Assembly: GCF_009695745.1 (NCBI RefSeq)
Contig: NZ_VUNH01000003.1
Coordinates: forward strand, 62,001 to 126,000
Reading direction: 5' to 3'
DNA length: 64,000 nucleotides
Origin: Pyramidobacter porci
GTDB lineage: Bacteria; Synergistota; Synergistia; Synergistales; Dethiosulfovibrionaceae
Under the pieces are notes generated by a model. The model saw only the letters and a list, made by a program, of their open reading frames with translations. It was not told the origin of the DNA and ran no database searches. Position 1 is the first letter of the stretch. Each line of letters opens with the position of its first letter. Position numbers and translations under genes: made by a program. This document shows positions 21,980-39,649 of this stretch, piece after piece.

Positions 21980-22055
21980 GGGGCTGTGGCGCAGTTGGGA
22001 GCGCGATTCGTTCGCAACGAATAGGTCGAGGGTTCGAATCCCTTCAGCTCCACCA
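21980..22055 (+). tRNA. tRNA-Ala (anticodon CGC)
   Basis: A 76-base cloverleaf with encoded CCA. Acceptor GGGGCTG pairs with CAGCTCC, discriminator A; the anticodon loop TTCGCAA is closed by ATTCG/CGAAT, giving CGC at 22013-22015. Confidence 0.93.
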
Positions 22056-22068
22056 TATTCTCTCAATT

Positions 22069-22146
22069 CGGGGTGTAGCGCAGTCTGGTTAGCGCACCTG
22101 CTTTGGGAGCAGGGGGCCGAAGGTTCGAATCCTTTCACCCCGACCA
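22069..22146 (+). tRNA. tRNA-Pro (anticodon TGG)
   Basis: A 78-base cloverleaf with encoded CCA. Acceptor CGGGGTG pairs with CACCCCG; the anticodon stem CCTGC/GCAGG closes loop TTTGGGA, anticodon TGG at 22104-22106. Confidence 0.93.
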
Positions 22147-22161
22147 GTGGATGAGGTTCGT

Positions 22162-22237
22162 GCGGAAATAGCTCAATTGGTAGAGCACTAGCCTTCCAAG
22201 CTGGGGGTTGCGGGTTCGAGTCCCGTTTTCCGCTCCA
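22162..22237 (+). tRNA. tRNA-Gly (anticodon TCC)
   Basis: A 76-base cloverleaf with encoded CCA. Acceptor GCGGAAA pairs with TTTCCGC; anticodon loop CTTCCAA gives TCC. Confidence 0.93.
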
Positions 22238-22244
22238 TTACCGT

Positions 22245-22321
22245 GCGCCGGTAGCTCAGTTGGATAGAGCAACGGCCTTCTAAGCCGTGGGCCACGGGTT
22301 CGAATCCTGTCCGGCGCGCCA
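22245..22321 (+). tRNA. tRNA-Arg (anticodon TCT)
   Basis: A 77-base cloverleaf with encoded CCA, discriminator G. Acceptor GCGCCGG pairs with CCGGCGC; the anticodon loop CTTCTAA is closed by ACGGC/GCCGT. Confidence 0.93.
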
Positions 22322-22351
22322 TTCTCGTTCGCGCATTGTGCAAGGCAATAC

Positions 22352-22429
22352 GGTGGGTGTAGCTCAGTTGGTTAGAGCGGAGGATTGTGGATCCTCAGGC
22401 CGAGAGTTCGAATCTCTTTACCCACCCCA
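22352..22429 (+). tRNA. tRNA-His (anticodon GTG)
   Basis: A 78-base gene including G-1 at 22352, which faces C73 as expected for tRNA-His. The anticodon loop TTGTGGA is closed by GAGGA/TCCTC. CCA is encoded. Confidence 0.93.
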
Positions 22430-22437
22430 ATTCATAT

Positions 22438-22513
22438 GGATCGTTAGCTCAACTGGCAGAGCATCTGACTCTTAATCAGAGGGTTACAGGTTCAAGTCCT
22501 GTACGATCCACCA
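22438..22513 (+). tRNA. tRNA-Lys (anticodon CTT)
   Basis: A 76-base cloverleaf with encoded CCA. Acceptor GGATCGT pairs with ACGATCC; the anticodon loop CTCTTAA is closed by TCTGA/TCAGA. Confidence 0.93.
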
Positions 22514-30086: not shown

Positions 30087-31826
30087 ATGGCGTTGCCGTT
30101 CACCGCTGACGCGATCGTGCCGCTGCTTCTGGTGGCGGCCGGCTGCGTGGCGCTTCAGCGTTTTTTCAGGAAAAAACTGAGCCGAGATCAATATTTTTAT
30201 ATGAGGGACCTTTCGCTGATGACGGTAATGATGCTGCTGGCATTGTGGAGCGGCAGCGACCGCATCGAGGCGCTGGTGGCCTGTTCGCTGCTGTCCATGG
30301 TGGTGGGGCTGGCGGAGCGGGCTCGCCCGGGAAAAGGTTTCTTCGCTTTTATCATTCTGCCCGGGTTGATCTTCGCCCTGACGGGACAGCCGATTTCGTT
30401 CGTCTCTTCCAGCGGTTCCGCGTTTCTTTACCTGTCCTCATGGCAGTCCATTCTGCTGACCACGGCGTGGATGACGCTGTTTCCCGTGTTGTTCCGGCGG
30501 CTCGACCAGGTGCCGGGGCTGGCGGGACATCTGCTGGGCGTGAGCTTGTCGCTGATGGTCGCGGTGACGTATTTCTCGCGCCAAAATCTGAGCGAGGCGT
30601 TTTTGGTCTCGGTCGTGTCTCTGGTGCTGGTCGGCGCGTACTGGAGTCGGCTCGGCCATCAATTCCGCCAGTTGGGAACGCCGCTGGCGTCCTTGTGGGG
30701 CACGCTGGTGGCGGGGATTTCCATCATCGGCGTCAGCAAGGGGATCACGCTCACGGCGCTGATGGTGATTCCGCTGGGATTTTACGCCGTGCCCCTGGTG
30801 GAGCTGTCGCTGGGGCTGGTCAGTCATGCGTTCACGCACGGGCAGACTCGCGCGGCCCCCGACCTTTACGGCCGCGTGATCGAGCGCGGCGTGGACCATC
30901 CGGCGGCGGTGCGTCTGGTGACGGAGATCTGCCTGTTGGTTGGCGCTTCGGTGGCGCTGATGCAGCTGATCCCCGATTCCGCCGCGCTGAAAATGGCGGT
31001 GCCGGCCATGGCCGGCGTGCTGCTGCTGGTGCTGTGGGGGGTGCACGGCGGCCGCCGCGCGCGCGCCGACGATCATTCGCTGTGGGGCGTGCGGATCGAC
31101 GGGATCTCCATGAACTACGCGCTGTCGAAGAGCCTGGCTTGGCTCAAGAGCGTCGAGCCGCGCTTCCGCATGGTGGTGACGATGAACGCGCTGGGGCTGA
31201 ACGAGACGCGCTCCGACGCAGAGTTCCGCCGCATCGCCAACGCGGCCGATCTGAACCTTCCCGACGGCGCGGGGCTGGTCTGGGCGTTGAGAAAGCTGAA
31301 AGTGCCCGTGGTGGAACGCATCGCCGGCATCGATTACATGGATCGTCTCTGCCGTCTGGCGGCGTCCGAATCGCTGCCCGTGTACCTGCTGGGCGGCCGT
31401 CCGGGCATCGCCCGCCGTGCCGCGGAACGCCTGCAAAAGGAATATCCCGGTCTGGTCGTTTCCGGTTGTTACGACGGCTATTTCGACCGCGCTTTTTCCG
31501 GCGAAGTTGCCGGCAACGTGCGCAACAGCGGCGCCAAGATCCTTTTTGCGGCGCTGGGCATGCCGGCGCAGGAAAAATGGCTCGACTCGCAGCGCGCCAA
31601 TCTGGACGGGATCCTTTGCGTGGGCGTGGGCGGCAGTTTCGACGTTTACGCCGGCGTTTTGAGGCGAGCGCCCCGTTTCTGGCAGAAAGTCGGCTGCGAA
31701 TGGCTCTATCGCCTGTTCCAGGAACCGTGGCGGCTGAAGCGCGATTTCCAGCTGCTGGCCTTTGTGCTGGCGGTGTTTCGCGAGCGGCTCAACGTCTTTC
31801 CGTGGAGAGAAAAAGATCATGCGTAG
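30087..31826 (+). CDS. WecG/TagA/CpsF glycosyltransferase fused to a degenerate WecA/MraY-like membrane domain
   Basis: A 579-residue membrane protein. Residues 1-330 have about ten hydrophobic segments that follow the WecA/MraY pattern (for example GISIIGVSKGITLTAL near 211-226), but its catalytic signatures are replaced: the DD pair by GLAERAR near 73, the GDSGS loop by LGTPLAS near 197 and the C-terminal HHH by residues without His. Residues about 340-575 form a GT26 domain that keeps LNLPDGAGLVW near 389 and GVGGSFDVYAG near 512-522. GT26 enzymes add ManNAc(A) or similar sugars to lipid-linked GlcNAc. The fused half is probably a lipid-substrate holder or anchor (inference). The downstream CBS gene overlaps by 8 bases. 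Confidence 0.8.
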   Translation: MALPFTADAIVPLLLVAAGCVALQRFFRKKLSRDQYFYMRDLSLMTVMMLLALWSGSDRIEALVACSLLSMVVGLAERARPGKGFFAFIILPGLIFALTGQPISFVSSSGSAFLYLSSWQSILLTTAWMTLFPVLFRRLDQVPGLAGHLLGVSLSLMVAVTYFSRQNLSEAFLVSVVSLVLVGAYWSRLGHQFRQLGTPLASLWGTLVAGISIIGVSKGITLTALMVIPLGFYAVPLVELSLGLVSHAFTHGQTRAAPDLYGRVIERGVDHPAAVRLVTEICLLVGASVALMQLIPDSAALKMAVPAMAGVLLLVLWGVHGGRRARADDHSLWGVRIDGISMNYALSKSLAWLKSVEPRFRMVVTMNALGLNETRSDAEFRRIANAADLNLPDGAGLVWALRKLKVPVVERIAGIDYMDRLCRLAASESLPVYLLGGRPGIARRAAERLQKEYPGLVVSGCYDGYFDRAFSGEVAGNVRNSGAKILFAALGMPAQEKWLDSQRANLDGILCVGVGGSFDVYAGVLRRAPRFWQKVGCEWLYRLFQEPWRLKRDFQLLAFVLAVFRERLNVFPWREKDHA

Positions 31827-32286
31827 CGGGATGGTGACCGCCGAGCAGCTGATGAAGCGCGACCTGACCGCCGTCATGGCAGAAGACACCGTCGAAGACG
31901 CCATGCACGTGCTGCACAGCCACAGCCTGAGCGGCGTTCCGGTCGTGGACGAGCGGTGGCGTCTGGTGGGCTTTCTTTCGGAATCGGACATCCTCCGCTC
32001 CGTGCTGCCGTCGTATCTGGAGATCCTTGCGCGGGATTCTTTCCTCTACGGCGAGCACGAACTGCTGGTAAAAAATTTTTCGCAGGTCCGCGCCGGCGTC
32101 GTGCGCGATTACATGCAGGCACGCTGTCAGGCGGTGCAGCCGGAGACGAATATCATGAACGTGGCCGATTTGATGCTGCGTCTCAAAGTTAAGCGTCTGC
32201 CCGTCGTCGACGGCCGGTTGCTGATGGGGATCATCGACCGAGGCGACCTGTGCGAGTATCTGATGAATTCCGGAGGAACCTCATGA
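31819..32286 (+). CDS. CBS-domain pair protein coupled to the V-ATPase-like operon
   Basis: A 155-residue protein of two CBS motifs: residues about 6-60 (TAEQLMKRDLTAVMAEDTVE, then LSGVPVVDERWRLVGFLSESDI) and about 95-150 (VVRDYMQARC, then KRLPVVDGRLLMGIIDRGDL). CBS pairs bind adenosine nucleotides and usually report energy charge. The start overlaps the previous stop by 8 bases, and its stop overlaps the next start (ATGA), so it is made together with the rotary-ATPase-like proteins. A role in sensing nucleotide state for that complex is inference. Confidence 0.85.
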   Translation: MRSGMVTAEQLMKRDLTAVMAEDTVEDAMHVLHSHSLSGVPVVDERWRLVGFLSESDILRSVLPSYLEILARDSFLYGEHELLVKNFSQVRAGVVRDYMQARCQAVQPETNIMNVADLMLRLKVKRLPVVDGRLLMGIIDRGDLCEYLMNSGGTS

Positions 32287-32615
32287 CGCCGAAGGAAAGC
32301 GAATCGCGCTGGAAAGAGCGATTGCACCAACTCGCTGTGGCTCAGCGGGCGCAGACGCTTGATCTGGAGCGGGAGCTCGAAGCGCGCGTCCGCGAGGCGG
32401 AACGGCGGACGCGACTGATGCTGGAGAACACGCTGAAACGCTGCGACGCGATCCAAAAGGCCAGAATTGCCGCTTATGAGCGCGAAACTCAGCAGCTTCT
32501 TGGCCGAATGCGCGGAGAATCGGAACGCCGCTGCGCCGAGGCCTCCTGTGCGCCGATGGATGCGGAGCTGGACCGCGCCTGGGCGGCGATAAGCGGAGAG
32601 GAGGAAACGCGCTGA
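32283..32615 (+). CDS. Peripheral-stalk coiled-coil protein, V/A-ATPase subunit G/H-like
   Basis: A 110-residue, highly charged, almost entirely helical protein (heptads through LDLERELEARVREAERRTR and onward). Size, coiled-coil nature and position directly before subunit I match the G/H peripheral-stalk subunit of A/V-ATPases; sequence alone would not prove this. The ATG sits in an ATGA overlap and GGAGG lies six bases upstream. The stop overlaps the next start. Confidence 0.65.
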   Translation: MTPKESESRWKERLHQLAVAQRAQTLDLERELEARVREAERRTRLMLENTLKRCDAIQKARIAAYERETQQLLGRMRGESERRCAEASCAPMDAELDRAWAAISGEEETR

Positions 32616-34510
32616 TGATCGAAAAAATGTGTCGGCTCTCGATGGCAGTTCCCGAATCTTTAGGAATGGATTTTATCGATTTCTTGCAGGCCGACGGGCG
32701 CGTTCATTTGATCCTGCCTTTTGAAGAACAGCACAACGTCGATCTGGCAGATCGTCTCCTGGTATTGCGCGAGAAGCTGCGCGCCATGGTGGAAACGCTG
32801 GAAGGCATTGCCGTCTCCGCTTCGGAGGAAGGCGTTCCCGCTGCGGCCGACGCCGAGGTGGAGCGGATCCTGTCCGAATCCCTCGCTCTGACCGTTCCCG
32901 AACTGGAGAAAAGCGTGGAAAAATTTCAGGCCGATCTTGCCCGCATCATGAAAGGGCATGAACGTCTCGCCGATGAAAAGAGGCTGCTCGAACGTATCCT
33001 CGCGCAGTTGGGAACGCTCGCTTTCAGGGATTCGTCAGGGCGGCGGTGCCTGCTCTGGTGGGCGGCGAAAGACCTTTGGCCGCTGGCGCAGAGGCAGATC
33101 GAACGTCTGGGCGCCGACGGCGAGAAAACGCTGTTCCACGTGCACGATACCGCCAAAGAGGGGCAGCTGCTGGTCGAGCTTTCGGCGCCGACGGCGCAGA
33201 TCCCCGCCGTGACGGAAATCCTGCACGGCATCAGCGCCGCGCTGTGGACGCCGCCGCCTCAGTGCGCCGGCAAAAATTACGCCGAAAGTGTGGAACTGAT
33301 GAAACGCCGTCTGTCGGAGATCCAGTCATTTCTCAAGGCGGAGCAGTCTGCCCTTGTCGCCATGAGAAAGCAGTGGGGCCTCGGGCAGAAGGCGTTTTTT
33401 TTGCTGATCGACCGCAAGGTCGACCAGTATCAGGTCTTCAGCCGCTGCGACCGCGTCGGCGGCGCGCTGCTGGTCGAAGGCTGGATGCCTCAGAGCGGGC
33501 TGGAAGATTTTCGCGCCCGCGTTGACGAAAAATTTGCCGGGCGTGCCGCGCTTCACGTTCGCGCGCCCGAACCCGACGAATATGGTCAAGTGCCGACCGC
33601 GCTGCGCCACGGCCGATTTTTCGCGCCCTTTGAAGTTTTTCTCAAACTCGTGCAGCCGCCGGCCTACGGCACAGCGGATCCCACCGGCCTGATCGGCGTG
33701 TTTTTTCCGTTTTTTGCGGGCTGTATCATCGGCGACGCAGGCTACGGGCTGGTCATGCTGATTTTGATGTGGTTCGTGCGACGCCGCGCCAAAAACGGAA
33801 CGGCGCGCGATGTGGCCTTCGTCCTCATGAACATGTGCGTCTGGAGCATTCTCTGGGGCGCGGCCTTCGGCGAGTTCTTCGGCGATCTCGCCCACCGGAT
33901 GTTCCACGTGGAACCGCTCTGGGTGGAACGTTCCCAGGCGGTCATGCCGGTGCTGATGTTTTCTGTGGCGCTCGGCCTGGGGCACGTGATGCTCGGTCTG
34001 GCAGTGGGACTGATTCACGGCCTGAAAGCCCGCCATAGAAAGCACGCTATGGAGAAGCTGGGCGGCATGCTGGTGATCGTGTCCTTGGTGGCGGCGCTCA
34101 TGTCCGTGCGCCGGCTTTTGCCGCCGCAGGCTCTTCCCGGAGGCATGGTGGCGCTCGTCGTCGGTCTGGTGCTGCTGACGGCGGGGGGCGGCATCGGCGG
34201 CCTGATCGAATCGATGAGTTCTTTCGGGCACATCCTCAGCTACGTGCGCATCGGCGCCATCGGCCTGTCGTCGGCTATCCTCGCGGTAGCGGCTTCGAAG
34301 TTCGTTGACGTCCTCGGCGTTTCGGCGCTGGGGCTTTTCGTCGCGCTGGCCATCCATCTGCTCAATTTCGTGCTGGCTTTCGCCGAGTCGGGACTGCACG
34401 CGGCGCGTCTCCATTATGTGGAGTTCATGGGCAATTTTTATGTCGCCCAGGGCAAAGACTACCATCCCTTTGCATACAGGAGGAATTTACCGTGGAAAAA
34501 GGACTCGTAG
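32615..34510 (+). CDS. V/A-type ATPase subunit I (membrane stator, a-subunit homologue)
   Basis: A 631-residue protein: soluble coiled-coil N-terminal half (about 1-340) and C-terminal membrane domain with about seven to eight helices. The conserved FFPFFAGCIIGDAGYGL lies near 363-380. The two arginines of the ion path are kept: in LSYVRIGAIGLSS near 545 and in GLHAARLHYVEF near 595. The membrane motor therefore looks functional. The start overlaps the previous stop (TGATG) after GAGGAGG. A parS core sits within this gene at 33900-33915. The K-subunit start lies inside its 3' end. Confidence 0.9.
   Translation: MIEKMCRLSMAVPESLGMDFIDFLQADGRVHLILPFEEQHNVDLADRLLVLREKLRAMVETLEGIAVSASEEGVPAAADAEVERILSESLALTVPELEKSVEKFQADLARIMKGHERLADEKRLLERILAQLGTLAFRDSSGRRCLLWWAAKDLWPLAQRQIERLGADGEKTLFHVHDTAKEGQLLVELSAPTAQIPAVTEILHGISAALWTPPPQCAGKNYAESVELMKRRLSEIQSFLKAEQSALVAMRKQWGLGQKAFFLLIDRKVDQYQVFSRCDRVGGALLVEGWMPQSGLEDFRARVDEKFAGRAALHVRAPEPDEYGQVPTALRHGRFFAPFEVFLKLVQPPAYGTADPTGLIGVFFPFFAGCIIGDAGYGLVMLILMWFVRRRAKNGTARDVAFVLMNMCVWSILWGAAFGEFFGDLAHRMFHVEPLWVERSQAVMPVLMFSVALGLGHVMLGLAVGLIHGLKARHRKHAMEKLGGMLVIVSLVAALMSVRRLLPPQALPGGMVALVVGLVLLTAGGGIGGLIESMSSFGHILSYVRIGAIGLSSAILAVAASKFVDVLGVSALGLFVALAIHLLNFVLAFAESGLHAARLHYVEFMGNFYVAQGKDYHPFAYRRNLPWKKDS
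33900..33915. promoter_or_regulatory. parS-like site inside the subunit I gene
   Basis: TGTTCCACGTGGAACC: 15 of 16 bases equal the palindromic site at 15101-15116. It encodes part of a soluble loop of subunit I (FHVEPLWVE), so it is kept within coding sequence. Intragenic parS sites are normal in other bacteria. Confidence 0.65.
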
Positions 34511-34710
34511 CATTGGCGGCGGCGTTGGCCGTGGGAATCCCCGCGCTCGCGACCGCTTTCGCCCAGGCCAGGATCGGCAGCGTAGCGGCCGGCAGCGTGG
34601 CGGAAAAACCGGAAACGGCCGGCACGATGATCATTCTCGAAGCGATCCCGGAAACGATGGTCATTCTCGGTTTCGTCGTGGCCATCATGTTGATCTTGCA
34701 GTTCGCCTAG
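34492..34710 (+). CDS. V/A-type ATPase subunit K (c-ring proteolipid), sodium-type signature
   Basis: A 72-residue two-helix proteolipid. Helix 1 carries Gln25, the loop reads EKPE (38-41), and helix 2 has the ion-binding Glu54 followed by Thr55 in AIPETMVIL. Gln in helix 1 with Glu-Thr/Ser in helix 2 is the Na+-binding signature of sodium-coupled c-rings (established for Ilyobacter-type rings), so Na+ is the likely ion. It is the single-hairpin form, not the duplicated NtpK form. The start is GTG at 34492, AGGAGG eight bases upstream, inside the end of subunit I. Confidence 0.9.
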   Translation: MEKGLVALAAALAVGIPALATAFAQARIGSVAAGSVAEKPETAGTMIILEAIPETMVILGFVVAIMLILQFA

Positions 34711-34720
34711 GAGTTTTCCG

Positions 34721-35293
34721 TTGACGGGCGAAGAGCTTCTGCCCCCGGCGTTTCTGCGCGCCATGGAGGCGGAACTTGCGGCGCGGCATGAGGCGATGCG
34801 GGAGTCTGCGGACGGCCGCGTCGGCGAGATGATCGCCGCTTGCCGCGACGAGGCGGCCGCGGCCGTGAAAAAACGCGCTGCCGCCTGTGAAGAGGCGCTG
34901 GAGCGCTTAAGCATGCGCCGTCGCCGCTTGCTGCGCGCGCTGGAGAATACTGTGCAGAAAGAGCTCGAAGCGCAGCATCTGCGGCGGCTCGAACGGGAGC
35001 TGCGGCAAAGGGTCGAACTTTTCCGAAGCAGCGAGAGCTATGGGGCGTTCCTGACAAGAATGGTGGAGCACTGCCGCCGCGCCGGTTTTTCCGACACAGG
35101 AACGTTCCAGGCGGCGGATCGCGAGGCCGGGCTGCTTCGCGCCGCCGGATTCTGCGTGGAAGAAAAAGATCCCGGGCGCTGGGGGGGCTTTATCCTGATC
35201 GAGGAGGGAGGCGCTCTCTTTGACTGTACTTTTCAGACCCGCTGGGAGCAATACTGCTGCGAACGTGTCGTCCACAGCCAGGGAAGAGCCTAA
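34721..35293 (+). CDS. V/A-type ATPase subunit E-like (peripheral stalk)
   Basis: A 190-residue protein with a long N-terminal charged helix (about 10-100, rich in Ala/Glu/Arg) and a small C-terminal alpha-beta domain, the layout of stalk subunit E. Position between K and C is canonical. Sequence is diverged. The TTG start at 34721 follows TAGGAG by seven bases. Its 3' end overlaps the start of the C-subunit gene by about 74 bases if that start is right. Confidence 0.75.
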   Translation: MTGEELLPPAFLRAMEAELAARHEAMRESADGRVGEMIAACRDEAAAAVKKRAAACEEALERLSMRRRRLLRALENTVQKELEAQHLRRLERELRQRVELFRSSESYGAFLTRMVEHCRRAGFSDTGTFQAADREAGLLRAAGFCVEEKDPGRWGGFILIEEGGALFDCTFQTRWEQYCCERVVHSQGRA

Positions 35294-36293
35294 TTACGAA
35301 TACGTTAACGGCCGTCTGCGCGCCCGCATGCGGGATTTTCTCCCGGCCCAGGTTTTCGCCGAACTTGCGTGTGCGGATTTGCAAGGCGTGGAACGATATT
35401 TGCTCAATACAGTTTACGGTCCGTTGTACCGCCGGGATTTTATGCTCTCGGACATGCCTTTGACGCTGAAGCTGGAGAGCCTGCTCTCCGCTTCCGCCCG
35501 ACAGCGTTTCGGCGAACTGAAAAGTTGGGGCAAAGGCACGGCGCGCTTGCTGACGTCGGTGCTTTCGATCCAGTCGGATCTGGAAAACGGCCAGCTCTTT
35601 TTGCGCGCGCTCCAATCGGGGCGGAACGATTACGAACCAGCTATGCCCGGTTGCGGTGAACTGAGCCCTGAATTCTGGCGACAGCTGGCCGGTGCCGGCG
35701 GCAACCGGGAGCAGATCGACGAACTGTGCCGCTACGATCCGACGGAACTGTCCAATGTGCTCAGCACGGCAGTGAAATTGCTTGACGAGTCGGGACGGCT
35801 CTGGGAGGCCGAGTGGTTCTACATGAAGAGCTCTTTCGACTGGGCCGGCGGCGTGCTGAAACGCTGTCGCGGCTCGAATGGAGCGGTCGTTTCGCAATGT
35901 CTCGGCTATCTGATCGACTTGTGGAATCTGCGCGTTTGGCTGAGTGTTCATTACGGTTCTGGCGCGCCGGTCGAAGCGGCTCATTTTCTCAAAGGCGGTT
36001 CGTTGCCGTTGGAGCGGCTGTTCTTCACCAAAAGTTACAAGGCGCTGCTGCGCGGCACGTTTTGGCGCTCCCGTGGGACGGACCCCGACGAACGTTCATT
36101 GTTCGAACTGGAGCGGCAGTATCTGCTCTGGCAGATGACGCTGCGCCGCGAAGACCCGCTTGGCGTGCAGGTGATCATCTCCTATCGGGCGCGCCTGTTC
36201 TGTGAGTGGCGCAACCTGATGACCATCGTTTCCGGACTGCAGAGCGGCTTGGACCGGGCGGCGCTGCAAAGCGTGCTGCTCATCGACCGTTAG
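35220..36293 (+). CDS. V/A-type ATPase subunit C-like (central stalk socket)
   Basis: A 357-residue helical protein like subunit C of A/V-ATPases (eukaryotic d), which sits on the c-ring and holds the rotor axle. EYVNGRLRARMRDFLP near 27-42 corresponds to the usual N-terminal Tyr-x-Asn-x-Arg motif. The start is uncertain: TTG at 35220 has GAGGGAGG upstream, while a GTG at 35265 gives a shorter N-terminus but no clear ribosome-binding site. Followed directly by the F-like gene. Confidence 0.78.
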   Translation: MTVLFRPAGSNTAANVSSTAREEPNYEYVNGRLRARMRDFLPAQVFAELACADLQGVERYLLNTVYGPLYRRDFMLSDMPLTLKLESLLSASARQRFGELKSWGKGTARLLTSVLSIQSDLENGQLFLRALQSGRNDYEPAMPGCGELSPEFWRQLAGAGGNREQIDELCRYDPTELSNVLSTAVKLLDESGRLWEAEWFYMKSSFDWAGGVLKRCRGSNGAVVSQCLGYLIDLWNLRVWLSVHYGSGAPVEAAHFLKGGSLPLERLFFTKSYKALLRGTFWRSRGTDPDERSLFELERQYLLWQMTLRREDPLGVQVIISYRARLFCEWRNLMTIVSGLQSGLDRAALQSVLLIDR

Positions 36294-36301
36294 GTGAAAA
36301 C

Positions 36302-36562
36302 ATGAAAAATCACGCGCTTTTGATCGGCTCGGCGTCGTTCCTGCGTTTTTGGTCAGTGCTGGGCTGCATGGAAAAAATTGTTCCCGCTCGATCCGGATTT
36401 CAGGAGCTGAAAGAAGCCGGACTCGCCTCCGGAGCGGAGGCTGTCTTGTACGAGGAAACGCTTGCGGAGAGCTTTTCCTTGTGGGAGAAAAAGTACTTTC
36501 AGGAGTCGGTCGCCCCTTACTGGATCCCTTTGCCTGCGGTGGAAGGAGGCGAGTTGAAATAG
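36302..36562 (+). CDS. Small V/A-ATPase subunit F-like protein
   Basis: An 86-residue protein starting MKNHALLIGSASFLRFWSVLG and ending in PAVEGGELK. Subunit F is a small Rossmann-like protein of about 100 residues that begins with a short strand and occupies the position between C and A; position and size fit, but sequence similarity is weak. ATG at 36302, nine bases after the C-subunit stop. Its TAG stop overlaps the proposed AUA start of the next gene. Confidence 0.6.
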   Translation: MKNHALLIGSASFLRFWSVLGCMEKIVPARSGFQELKEAGLASGAEAVLYEETLAESFSLWEKKYFQESVAPYWIPLPAVEGGELK

Positions 36563-37878
36563 ACGGACGTTTTGCGCCGGTTCAGTCGGTTTGTGCCGAA
36601 AGCGTTTGCATCGAAGCCGAATTTCCGGTCGTGCTGGGCGAATTCGCCTGCACCGAAGACAACTTGTGGTATGGGCAGGTGCAGAGTCATAACGGACGGA
36701 ACGTGCGCATCCTGCCGCTGGATCTTCCGGAAAAGATCCGTCCGGGCGAACTGCTGCGTCTGAGCGGCGAGACGCTGGAAGACCGCTTTGCCCGCACGGA
36801 ACCGGGCGTCGTGCTCGATCCGCTGGGACGATCGGTTATAAGAATCGGTGACGTGTCAATGGGCAATCTCGACTTTTTCGCGGCTCCGCAGGAGACGGAG
36901 GGCGGCAGTTTCTGGGGGCTGAAAACGTTGGGAGAGTTCATGAATCTGCACGATGGCGAGGGCGTGGTGCTACTCGGCACACCGCCGGGCGGATTTGCCT
37001 TGCTGTTCAGTCAGATCGCCGCGGCGCAGCGGGCGGATTTTCTGTATATTTTCTGCCAAGGCGGTTACCGCGAGCTGTATCGTTACTGCCGAGCCGTACA
37101 GATGGCCGGCAGTGCGGAAAGATGCGTGATCCTCTGGACGCCGCCGTGGAACGTGCCGGCGATGAAGACGCTGGTGCCGCGGGCGCTCACGTATCTGACG
37201 GGGCGTCCTCATGCTGCCCGGCGGCGTCTGGTCCTGATCGACGATCTGCATTATTGGTTGGAATCGGCGCGTGAATACGGCGAAAGCTCGGGCGAACTGC
37301 CGCTCCCCGACGGCTATCCTTATACGGCCCGGCGCCAGCTGGGCGAACTGCTGGATCTCAAATCGCTGCCCGATGAAGAGGGGCGTTCCACGTCGCTGCT
37401 TGTCGGCTGGCGCTATGAGGAAGGCTTTTCGCCTCTTGCTGAGCATCCTTATATGGGGCGTTTGCCGCGGTTCATGCGCACGGGCATTATCCTTGAGGAA
37501 TCGTCGGAATACCTTGTGCCGTCGAAAGATTCCTGGGGCGAACTGTCGCCGGCCGGACGCTGCTGGCGGCAGCTGTCCCGCCTGACCGGGGAATGCGACG
37601 AGGATCTTCGCCCCGCAGTGGAAGCGCTGACGGGGCTTTTCGGCTCGCTCTTTGTGGAGTATTCTCCGCTCAGCTTTGTGACGGCGCCTGAGAATCGCGT
37701 GCAGTGGAGCGATGCCGACGGAAAGACACTTCTAAAACTGGCCTCTCGCCCCGGTCCGGCGCTGCTGGCGTCGGTGCTGAAAATCCGCGCCGAACTGCAG
37801 CTGAACTTTCGCGAATGGCCCGACGTGCGCCGCCGCAGCTTTATCGACTGGCTGCGCGCGCAGGAGGGACGGCCATGA
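36559..37878 (+). CDS. Degenerate V/A-ATPase A-subunit-like protein without P-loop; candidate AUA start
   Basis: A 439-residue rotary-ATPase alpha/beta-family protein in the A position. An N-terminal barrel is recognisable (RPGELLRLSGETLEDRF near 72, then LDPLGR). The P-loop position reads GTPPGGFA (140-147) instead of GPFGSGKT, and the GERGNE catalytic Glu position reads CQGGYREL (166-173). A Walker-B-like LVLIDDLHYW (224-233) and the following DGYPYTARRQLGELL are kept. The large non-homologous insert of real A subunits (about 590 residues) is missing. No ATG, GTG or TTG lies at the right place: the best start is ATA at 36559, nine bases after AAGGAGG (36543-36549) and overlapping the previous TAG. 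The next in-frame GTG (36631) would remove a barrel strand. Confidence 0.75.
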   Translation: MDGRFAPVQSVCAESVCIEAEFPVVLGEFACTEDNLWYGQVQSHNGRNVRILPLDLPEKIRPGELLRLSGETLEDRFARTEPGVVLDPLGRSVIRIGDVSMGNLDFFAAPQETEGGSFWGLKTLGEFMNLHDGEGVVLLGTPPGGFALLFSQIAAAQRADFLYIFCQGGYRELYRYCRAVQMAGSAERCVILWTPPWNVPAMKTLVPRALTYLTGRPHAARRRLVLIDDLHYWLESAREYGESSGELPLPDGYPYTARRQLGELLDLKSLPDEEGRSTSLLVGWRYEEGFSPLAEHPYMGRLPRFMRTGIILEESSEYLVPSKDSWGELSPAGRCWRQLSRLTGECDEDLRPAVEALTGLFGSLFVEYSPLSFVTAPENRVQWSDADGKTLLKLASRPGPALLASVLKIRAELQLNFREWPDVRRRSFIDWLRAQEGRP

Positions 37879-39086
37879 AACTGCTTCGCCGCGGTTCGAA
37901 CAACGTCAGTTTTCTCTCTGCTTCGTCGCTTTGGGTCGAGCGTCTCGCCGGCGCGGCGCTGAACGATCTGGTGACGATCCAGGACGACTCGGGCGACAGC
38001 TTTGTGGGGCGCGTCGTCGAAGTCCAAAACGACCGCTGTCATGTGCGCATCTGCGACGGCGAACATTCTCTCTGCCGCGATTCGCTGCGGGTCTGGCTGG
38101 GCAGCAGCGAACTGGAACTGCCGGCCGAACCTCCGCTGGTCGTTTCGCGGCTAACGCGCCGCTCCGTCTTCAAAACGGGGATCGCGCCGGTGGACACGCT
38201 TTTCCCTTTGCAGCACGGCCATTCGATCTTTGTGGCTGGAGTGTCGTTTTATCGGTCGCTGGATTTCTTTTCCGCGCTGCTGCACGGCGCGCTTTCGGAT
38301 CGTCAGTGGCCGTGCCTGATCTCGCTCGACACCTCGAAAAACGAGGCGCGGGAGGTCCGCCGCATCTGGAACCATTACGGTCTGGAAGACGAGGGACTGT
38401 TCATTTCCGACAGCCGCGATCAGCTCTATCAGAGCATGACACCGCTGCGCCTGGGCTGGGAGGCGGCGATCGGGCGCGCCAATGAAGGGCGCGACGTGTT
38501 CATGATGGTGCTCGACCTCGAATCGTGGGCGCGTTTTTATCAGGAAGATCTGGCGCTGCGCGGCTATTACCGCAGCCGCGCCGGAGCGCTGAACGGCTTC
38601 AAAAACGCGCTGAGCACCCACATGCAGCTGTTGTACGGGCATAAAGGGCGCATCACCGTGGCGATGCTGCTTTCCGAGCGCAAGGTGGCCGGGCTGCCCT
38701 CGGAACTGCTGGCGCTGCGCGATCTTTTTGACGGCGTTCTGATCCTGCGCGGCGATGGCTCGCTGTCGCTGAACGGCTACACGCCGCAGCTTCCGCGGGG
38801 GATGGACCGTTCGGTCGAATACGCCCGTCTGCTGCGCCGCCAGTGCAAAGAGCTGAGAGCGGAATTGAAACGCCGGCGCATGGACGAATATCCGCTGGGC
38901 GATGAAGAGCGAGCGTTCGAACGCGCCCTGCATGAATTCATGAGCGACTTGGAGCCGCGCGCTGACGCTTCGCCGCAGCGCATCTGGCAGATCCTTGCCC
39001 TGATGCCGGAAAGCCGCATCGGACGCGTGCCGTTGTCGCTGCTGCGGGAGTACAGCCGCAACGACGTCGGGGAGGCGTCCCGATGA
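37875..39086 (+). CDS. Degenerate V/A-ATPase B-subunit-like protein
   Basis: A 403-residue member of the alpha/beta family in the B position (normal B is about 460). The block SVFKTGIAPVDTLFPLQHG near 95-113 matches the B/alpha segment before the nucleotide pocket (TGI-AID-L---RGQ), but the residues after it (HSIFVAGVSFYRS) contain no P-loop or pocket-like pattern. TSKNEAREVRRIWNHYG near 152 and ILRGDGSLSLNGYTPQLPR near 291 correspond to conserved B blocks. It starts in an ATGA overlap with the A-like gene, and its stop overlaps the D-like start. Real B subunits are non-catalytic; here both head proteins seem unable to bind ATP in the normal way. Confidence 0.75.
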   Translation: MKLLRRGSNNVSFLSASSLWVERLAGAALNDLVTIQDDSGDSFVGRVVEVQNDRCHVRICDGEHSLCRDSLRVWLGSSELELPAEPPLVVSRLTRRSVFKTGIAPVDTLFPLQHGHSIFVAGVSFYRSLDFFSALLHGALSDRQWPCLISLDTSKNEAREVRRIWNHYGLEDEGLFISDSRDQLYQSMTPLRLGWEAAIGRANEGRDVFMMVLDLESWARFYQEDLALRGYYRSRAGALNGFKNALSTHMQLLYGHKGRITVAMLLSERKVAGLPSELLALRDLFDGVLILRGDGSLSLNGYTPQLPRGMDRSVEYARLLRRQCKELRAELKRRRMDEYPLGDEERAFERALHEFMSDLEPRADASPQRIWQILALMPESRIGRVPLSLLREYSRNDVGEASR

Positions 39087-39649
39087 ACGGAACGGACGTC
39101 CGTTCTCTGCCGGAGAGGCTGCGCCAGCGCATCCATCGCCTGACCGTCAGCCGGGAACGTCTCGGCGCCCGGAGCCTCGAACGAAAACGGCGGTTGGACG
39201 AACTGACGGCGCGGACCGCTTACGCCCTGGCGATGCTGAACATTTACAGCGGGCCGCAAAGCGCCGAGCTGTTCCGGCTCAGTTTTTTGCCGATCGCCGT
39301 CGAATCGAGAAAGGAAATTCGTTCCGGCGTGGAGTGTCTGCAGTTTTACCGTGCGGACGCCATCGTGCGGCACGGCCTGCTGCCGCGCTACACGTCGCTG
39401 CTTACCTCGCCGCAGGCGGAGAGTGCCTCGCTTCAAGTCGAAGAACTGATCTGCGCGCTGTGGGACTACATCAACGGTATGATGGAGCTGCGCTCGGCGG
39501 ACCGTTTGATCCGCCGCCTGCGCCGTAGCCTGAAACAAGCGGAGCGGGAGAGCGGACAGACGGCGCGGTCTTTTGCGGCGCAGCGCGCCGCGCGTGAGCA
39601 TGCCTTCGAAACGGAACGGCATCGTCGGAAAGTGGTTGAAGACCGATGA
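39083..39649 (+). CDS. V/A-ATPase subunit D-like (central axle)
   Basis: A 188-residue, mainly helical protein with long N- and C-terminal coiled-coil arms, the shape of the rotor axle subunit D. The N-terminal RLRQRIHRLTVSRERLGARSLERKR region occupies the place of the usual L-x-L-K-x-x-L-x-x-A-x-x-G-x-x-L-L-K-x-K-R motif but is strongly diverged. It follows B by an ATGA overlap, as in canonical operons, and overlaps rlmH by another. Identification rests on order, size and helicity. Confidence 0.65.
   Translation: MNGTDVRSLPERLRQRIHRLTVSRERLGARSLERKRRLDELTARTAYALAMLNIYSGPQSAELFRLSFLPIAVESRKEIRSGVECLQFYRADAIVRHGLLPRYTSLLTSPQAESASLQVEELICALWDYINGMMELRSADRLIRRLRRSLKQAERESGQTARSFAAQRAAREHAFETERHRRKVVEDR

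Follow-up and report, generated by a model that had tools for sequence, protein, structure and literature searches.

The window, a stretch of 64,000 nucleotides of the genome of Pyramidobacter porci, a bacterium of gut or mouth (G000; Synergistota, 2.53 Mb in 22 contigs, 98% complete), carries a full V/A-ATPase operon at positions 32283-39649. The open reading frame coordinates bear out the gene order, the positions and the start/stop coupling proposed in the original prediction: nine genes, all on the forward strand, run in the order stalk-I-K-E-C-F-A-B-D, are tightly packed, with overlaps of 1-29 bases at most of their joints, and contain no internal stop codon. The V/A-type subunit set (G-I-K-E-C-F-A-B-D) is complete within this single operon. 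The closest named record that has the operon is Pyramidobacter sp. C12-8, whose subunit I is 89% identical; this record and genome G010 are treated as a single genome in all counts. Elsewhere in the window, positions 21980-22513 hold six clustered tRNA genes (Ala, Pro, Gly, Arg, His and Lys), an ordinary arrangement.

Family assignments made with Pfam are certain for subunits I, K and C. Subunit I (a; 32615-34510, 631 amino acids) matches V_ATPase_I at 9.9e-20, the 72-residue single-hairpin proteolipid K (c; 34492-34710) matches ATP-synt_C at 2.8e-16, and C (d; about 35265-36293), the socket between ring and shaft, matches vATP-synt_AC39 at 3.9e-24. The A-like product (36559-37878, 439 amino acids) is a marginal member of ATP-synt_ab (3.6e-7), with the B-like (37875-39086, 403 amino acids) and D-like (39083-39649) products falling below threshold. 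The E-like peripheral stalk subunit (34721-35293) and the strongly diverged F-like subunit (36302-36562) gave no meaningful Pfam match by themselves and were recognised through orthologues in other genomes. BLAST returned E=2e-7 both for the former against subunit E of an intact second V/A-ATPase operon found in other Synergistota (see below) and for the latter against F of genome G045. This intact E scores 5e-8 against vATP-synt_E, the WGG and TF-(T/S)R motifs are retained in the E-like subunit, and F of G045 matches ATP-synt_F at 1.2e-4, slightly under the cut-off. The first gene of the operon (32283-32615) likely encodes a G-like, coiled-coil peripheral stalk subunit of 110 amino acids, as suggested by its position, its coiled-coil make-up and a weak match to F-type b (E=0.13); a similar reading frame occurs in most second operons. 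It overlaps by four bases the gene upstream (31819-32286), which encodes a protein with two CBS domains (Pfam CBS, 4.9e-26), the first gene of the cassette and a candidate ligand-sensing regulator.

The closest solved relatives of I and K over their full length are those of the Thermus thermophilus V/A-ATPase (6qum, 5gar and 5y5x). K aligns with Thermus K without gaps (E=2e-13), placing Glu54 on the PET glutamate, and I matches the T. thermophilus I profile from end to end (E=7.5e-65), with R545 and R598 aligned to Arg563 and Arg622. Both Thermus arginines pair with c/Glu63 (PMC7367684). These alignments agree with the original prediction that K keeps its ion-binding glutamate and I the arginines of the ion path; the ion half-channel of I is intact. 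The pathway is also strictly conserved: Q25, E50, E54 and T55 of K are invariant in 58 orthologues, and R545, R598, H595 and E603 of I in 57, K being 69-90% identical among the aligned second operons. A candidate Na+ signature in K (Q25/E54/T55) was dropped, as AQARIG and PET are segments that it has in common with K of Thermus, an H+-type subunit; the sequence cannot discriminate H+ from Na+ coupling.

The A-like protein is strikingly different. Its match to ATP-synt_ab reaches 30.5 bits against a cut-off of 29.5, and its barrel aligns with the profile of intact A subunits at E=3e-5. In the motif columns of an alignment with 42 intact orthologues, the A-like protein has GTPPGGFA, CQGGYREL and IDDLHYW; the genome's canonical A subunit, encoded at locus L004 on contig C11, displays GPFGSGKT, GERGNE and ADSTSRW. 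The first two substitutions had been proposed beforehand and are upheld by this comparison. Neither a GxxGxGKT P-loop nor the catalytic Glu of GERGNE is present in the A-like protein in this alignment, which also rejected a displaced P-loop. The predicted loss of the A-type insert proved correct, since the PF16886 barrel-sandwich, found by Pfam in intact A, is absent. Across Pyramidobacter the former P-loop reads G[TSI]PPGG, and in G008, from a sister genus, the equivalent sequences are GDGSVGIAK and CQGGLREL. Translation of the A-like gene apparently starts at an ATA codon at 36559, which overlaps the F stop (ATAG) and has a good Shine-Dalgarno sequence upstream; the matching position in G008 is ATG.

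V-type B subunits normally have no P-loop, so its absence from the B-like protein, for which the original prediction noted the lack of a nucleotide pocket, carries no weight. The informative loss is that of the SLSRL arginine-finger motif from the corresponding motif columns. The B-like protein matches Pfam ATP-synt_ab only at E=0.018; its identity is given by NCBIfam V-type B (1.7e-5) and a V-type B profile (1.2e-7). AlphaFold models built from two-row alignments had a mean pLDDT of 37 (A-like) and 42 (B-like), too low for the models to be of use. Sequencing error was rejected as a source of these changes, as five genomes agree and one of these is assembled into a single contig of 1.68 Mb. 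The search for a second ATPase that the original prediction called for located a canonical V-ATPase with intact motifs in the same genome. G008 additionally encodes F0F1 alpha and beta subunits (L064, 7140-11020), and carries F-type, canonical V-type and P-loop-less V-type systems together. By descent the complex is a V/A-ATPase, but by definition it is no ATPase, because the four catalytic features (P-loop, GER Glu, insert and SLSRL) are lacking; its proper name is a V/A-ATPase-derived complex.

A search with subunit I over 188 Synergistota genomes revealed the second operon in 61 genomes from 27 genera, mostly between a WecG-type glycosyltransferase gene and rlmH-ybaB-recR where both flanks are present. 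I and K are conserved throughout all head states. Among the 57 genomes with a readable A gene, 42 have an intact head, five (four Pyramidobacter and G008) are P-loop-less, and ten lack C, F and D. The intact systems share the site, gene order, CBS leader and K of the Pyramidobacter operon, and differ from it in possessing G(G/S)FGTGKT, GERGNE and an SLSRL-type motif; joint loss of P-loop, GER Glu, insert and SLSRL is confined to the five genomes. In the tree these five form one clade (support 100) beside members of the same family whose heads are intact (support 88). The ancestor of the P-loop-less clade was therefore most likely ATP-competent, and the operon almost certainly descends, in degenerate form, from a second V/A-ATPase that resembled the Thermus enzyme and was ATP-competent in earlier Synergistota. 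A search of the open literature found no description of a P-loop-less V-ATPase operon, which is not proof of absence.

The ten genomes of the third group (G112, G107, G058, G106, G108, G109, G110, G113, G115 and G116; loci L059, L060, L061, L125-L128 and L130-L132) belong to another family and have a cassette reduced to CBS-stalk-I-K-E-A-B, in which E is followed directly by A, and B by rlmH where rlmH is visible. Their A subunits keep a GxxGxGKT-type loop, GER reads GGRG in five of the genomes and GARG in a sixth, and the A of G058 comprises only 493 amino acids; A and B in this clade are eroding. C and D genes in these genomes occur only in other V-ATPase operons. G111, which does have C, F and D, nests within the clade in the I and B trees and lies outside it in the A tree. 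The reduced cassette represents a rotary ATPase with no axle in its own operon. Additional V-ATPase C and D pairs, separate from both the canonical and the second operons, were observed at G182:C1:1565293-1567264, G106:C62, G110:C60 and G058:C196. ATP coupling may have been lost at least twice in the Synergistota, by erosion of the head in Pyramidobacter and its sister genus and by removal of C, F and D in the other clade.

Divergence within the operon is highly uneven. Between Pyramidobacter and the intact system of G001, identity is 88% for K, 63% for the transmembrane half of I and 89% for the ion path, compared with 20% for B, 20% for D, 23% for the cytosolic arm of I and, across 62 amino acids only, 29% for A. 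A, B, D and the cytosolic arm have thus diverged excessively fast, and E and C at the normal pace of the family. The original prediction of strongly diverged D, E and F therefore holds for D and F but not for E. The D-like protein is homologous to intact D (hhalign probability 95, E=4.3e-8) but far diverged, reaching only 0.0026 against Pfam ATP-synt_D. In G008 it is only 154 amino acids long, which makes a turning shaft doubtful in that genome. Between Pyramidobacter and G008, A and B are only about 30-35% identical.

In comparisons of G000 with three other Pyramidobacter genomes, K has a dN/dS of 0 and I one of 0.14; the head subunits A and B have 0.18-0.20 and 0.10-0.12, and the shaft D has 0.17-0.22 (G000 comparisons only; other pairs, which had over-extended reading frames, and serS were left out). 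For the canonical V-ATPase, compared across these same genomes, the values were 0.034-0.038 for A and 0.04-0.08 for B, and in intact second operons 0.066-0.088 and 0.02-0.055, respectively, the A of G107 (wrong frame) being left out of these comparisons. Selection on the head is thus relaxed, 2-5 fold weaker than on intact heads, yet clearly purifying and far below 1. Of the features of a pseudogene, stops and frameshifts are absent from the operon in all five P-loop-less genomes, and a dN/dS near 1 is absent from the Pyramidobacter comparisons, although selection is relaxed. With the displaced P-loop, sequencing error and a dN/dS near 1 all failing as explanations, the original proposal that ATP hydrolysis was lost and the ion motor preserved is well supported by comparative analysis: the A/B head is predicted to be unable to bind or hydrolyse ATP.

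In 54 of the 55 loci with enough upstream sequence, the CBS gene lies by I, immediately ahead of the stalk gene. Genomes without the operon still contain the WecG gene (20 of 20 genomes searched, one being a positive control) but not this CBS gene beside it, and at eight of the ten operon-less sites fetched wecG is joined to rlmH/ybaB/recR. The presence of the CBS gene with the cassette, and its absence without it, indicate that CBS, stalk and I to D are gained and lost together. Two genomes of the window's own genus, G013 (L175) and G012 (L176), have a clean empty site from which the whole cassette is gone, showing that some close relatives can do without the P-loop-less version. The lack of stop codons had been taken as an argument against decay. 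The dN/dS of 0.10-0.20 lends weight to that argument, which is nevertheless tempered by the weakened constraint and the deletions in two congeners, both also expected for a dying system.

These observations bear on the strongest rival explanation, late decay, according to which the operon is a relic that has lost ATP coupling, remains under some constraint because erosion is slow or because a partly built motor must stay plugged, and makes its safe exit by deletion of the whole cassette. Such decay would account for the empty sites, within the genus and among the operon-less relatives, for the relaxed dN/dS of the head and for the marked shortening of D in G008. It is harder to reconcile with the uninterrupted frames and purifying selection on A and B in these genomes, with conservation of the ion path equal to that of intact systems, or with the retention of nine genes and their coupling over two genera in which A and B have diverged so far, a long time for passive survival. 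Late decay is considered unlikely, albeit a serious alternative.

The reading that best fits the data overall, to which we would assign an even chance of being correct, is a rotary ion pathway uncoupled from ATP that may act as a voltage-relief valve. The parts kept are I and the 72-residue K of the ring, C as a d-type socket, the peripheral stalk, and the CBS-domain partner; D, the shaft, and the arm by which I faces the head have drifted alongside an inert A/B head. Ions would cross at the I/K interface and the ring would turn, with torque no longer tied to ATP because a head with no nucleotide site could not couple, so that ions would probably be moved with ATP neither made nor consumed. 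The inert head, the stalk, C and the CBS protein would then set the opening of the pathway. That the complex assembles, that its ring turns and that it constitutes a regulated leak are inferences. There is precedent in Thermus, where altering the D helix leaves VoV1 completely uncoupled and conducting protons like bare Vo (PMC4355294). Isolated Thermus Vo conducts only above about 120 mV, a threshold that arises because the soluble arm of subunit a interacts with the rotor and hinders its rotation (PMC7367684). With C (d) kept, the arm of I changed and D degenerate, a braked, ATP-independent pathway is the most economical reading, and a mechanically braked rotary uniporter or leak valve is a mechanism we consider plausible at just short of even chances. 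A more specific proposal is also more tentative: that the complex has become a rotary ion channel, dedicated and gated, in which the CBS protein would be the sensor of a voltage-relief valve, and that coupling was lost at least twice in the phylum. The literature search made found no V-ATPase partner of the CBS type.

Rotation could instead serve another output, the ring and shaft driving a conformational change in a partner held by the inert A/B head. The stator and rotor set is complete in Pyramidobacter, and in mycoplasmas F1-like heads have come to serve other outputs (PMC11864180, PMC12994834). However, D, the sole shaft, is among the least conserved subunits, no new gene has been added to the cassette, and the parallel clade without C, F and D drops the shaft altogether, making this explanation improbable. 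Still less probable is a hybrid assembly in which I, K and the stalk combine with A, B, D and F of the canonical V-ATPase to provide a second gear ratio, the pseudo-A/B pair acting as assembly or inhibitory factors. Although the canonical enzyme is available, and in the reduced clade C and D reside only in other V-ATPase operons, the canonical and second-operon I subunits are only 25% identical and in Pyramidobacter selection still maintains the operon's C, D, F, A and B. Finally, the CQGGxREL common to both genera where GERGNE stood might indicate that the A/B interface binds some other ligand, the head acting as a ligand-gated rotor clamp, but the former P-loops are unlike (GTPPGGFAL versus GDGSVGIAK) with no shared pocket loop visible, and this possibility is very remote.

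The complex can be set against known rotary systems. The Thermus V/A-ATPase shares the single-hairpin K, the K glutamate and both I arginines; in contrast to the complex described here, with A deprived of P-loop, GER Glu and insert and B of SLSRL, it makes and splits ATP. The mycoplasma G1-ATPase and the F1-like X0 ATPase likewise put rotary ATPase parts to another use, but are its mirror image, having kept the ATPase head in the absence of the usual F0 motor. A catalytic head is regarded as indispensable to rotary ATPases. Every organism that encodes an ATP synthase was reported, in a survey across life, to possess catalytic subunits, and V-type B provides a precedent for the ancient loss of Walker A from one head subunit (PMC10656485). 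V-type B and F1 alpha are non-catalytic beside a partner that stays catalytic, whereas here neither A nor B is catalytic. A complete, selected complex with its own catalytic subunit dead contrasts with the view that such a head is required. Relatives with a working head make the steps by which ATP coupling was lost readable within one phylum, and the complex offers a naturally occurring means of testing what the membrane motor is capable of by itself. It also follows that an ‘ATP synthase operon’ annotation derived from I, K and C carries no implication of ATP synthesis.
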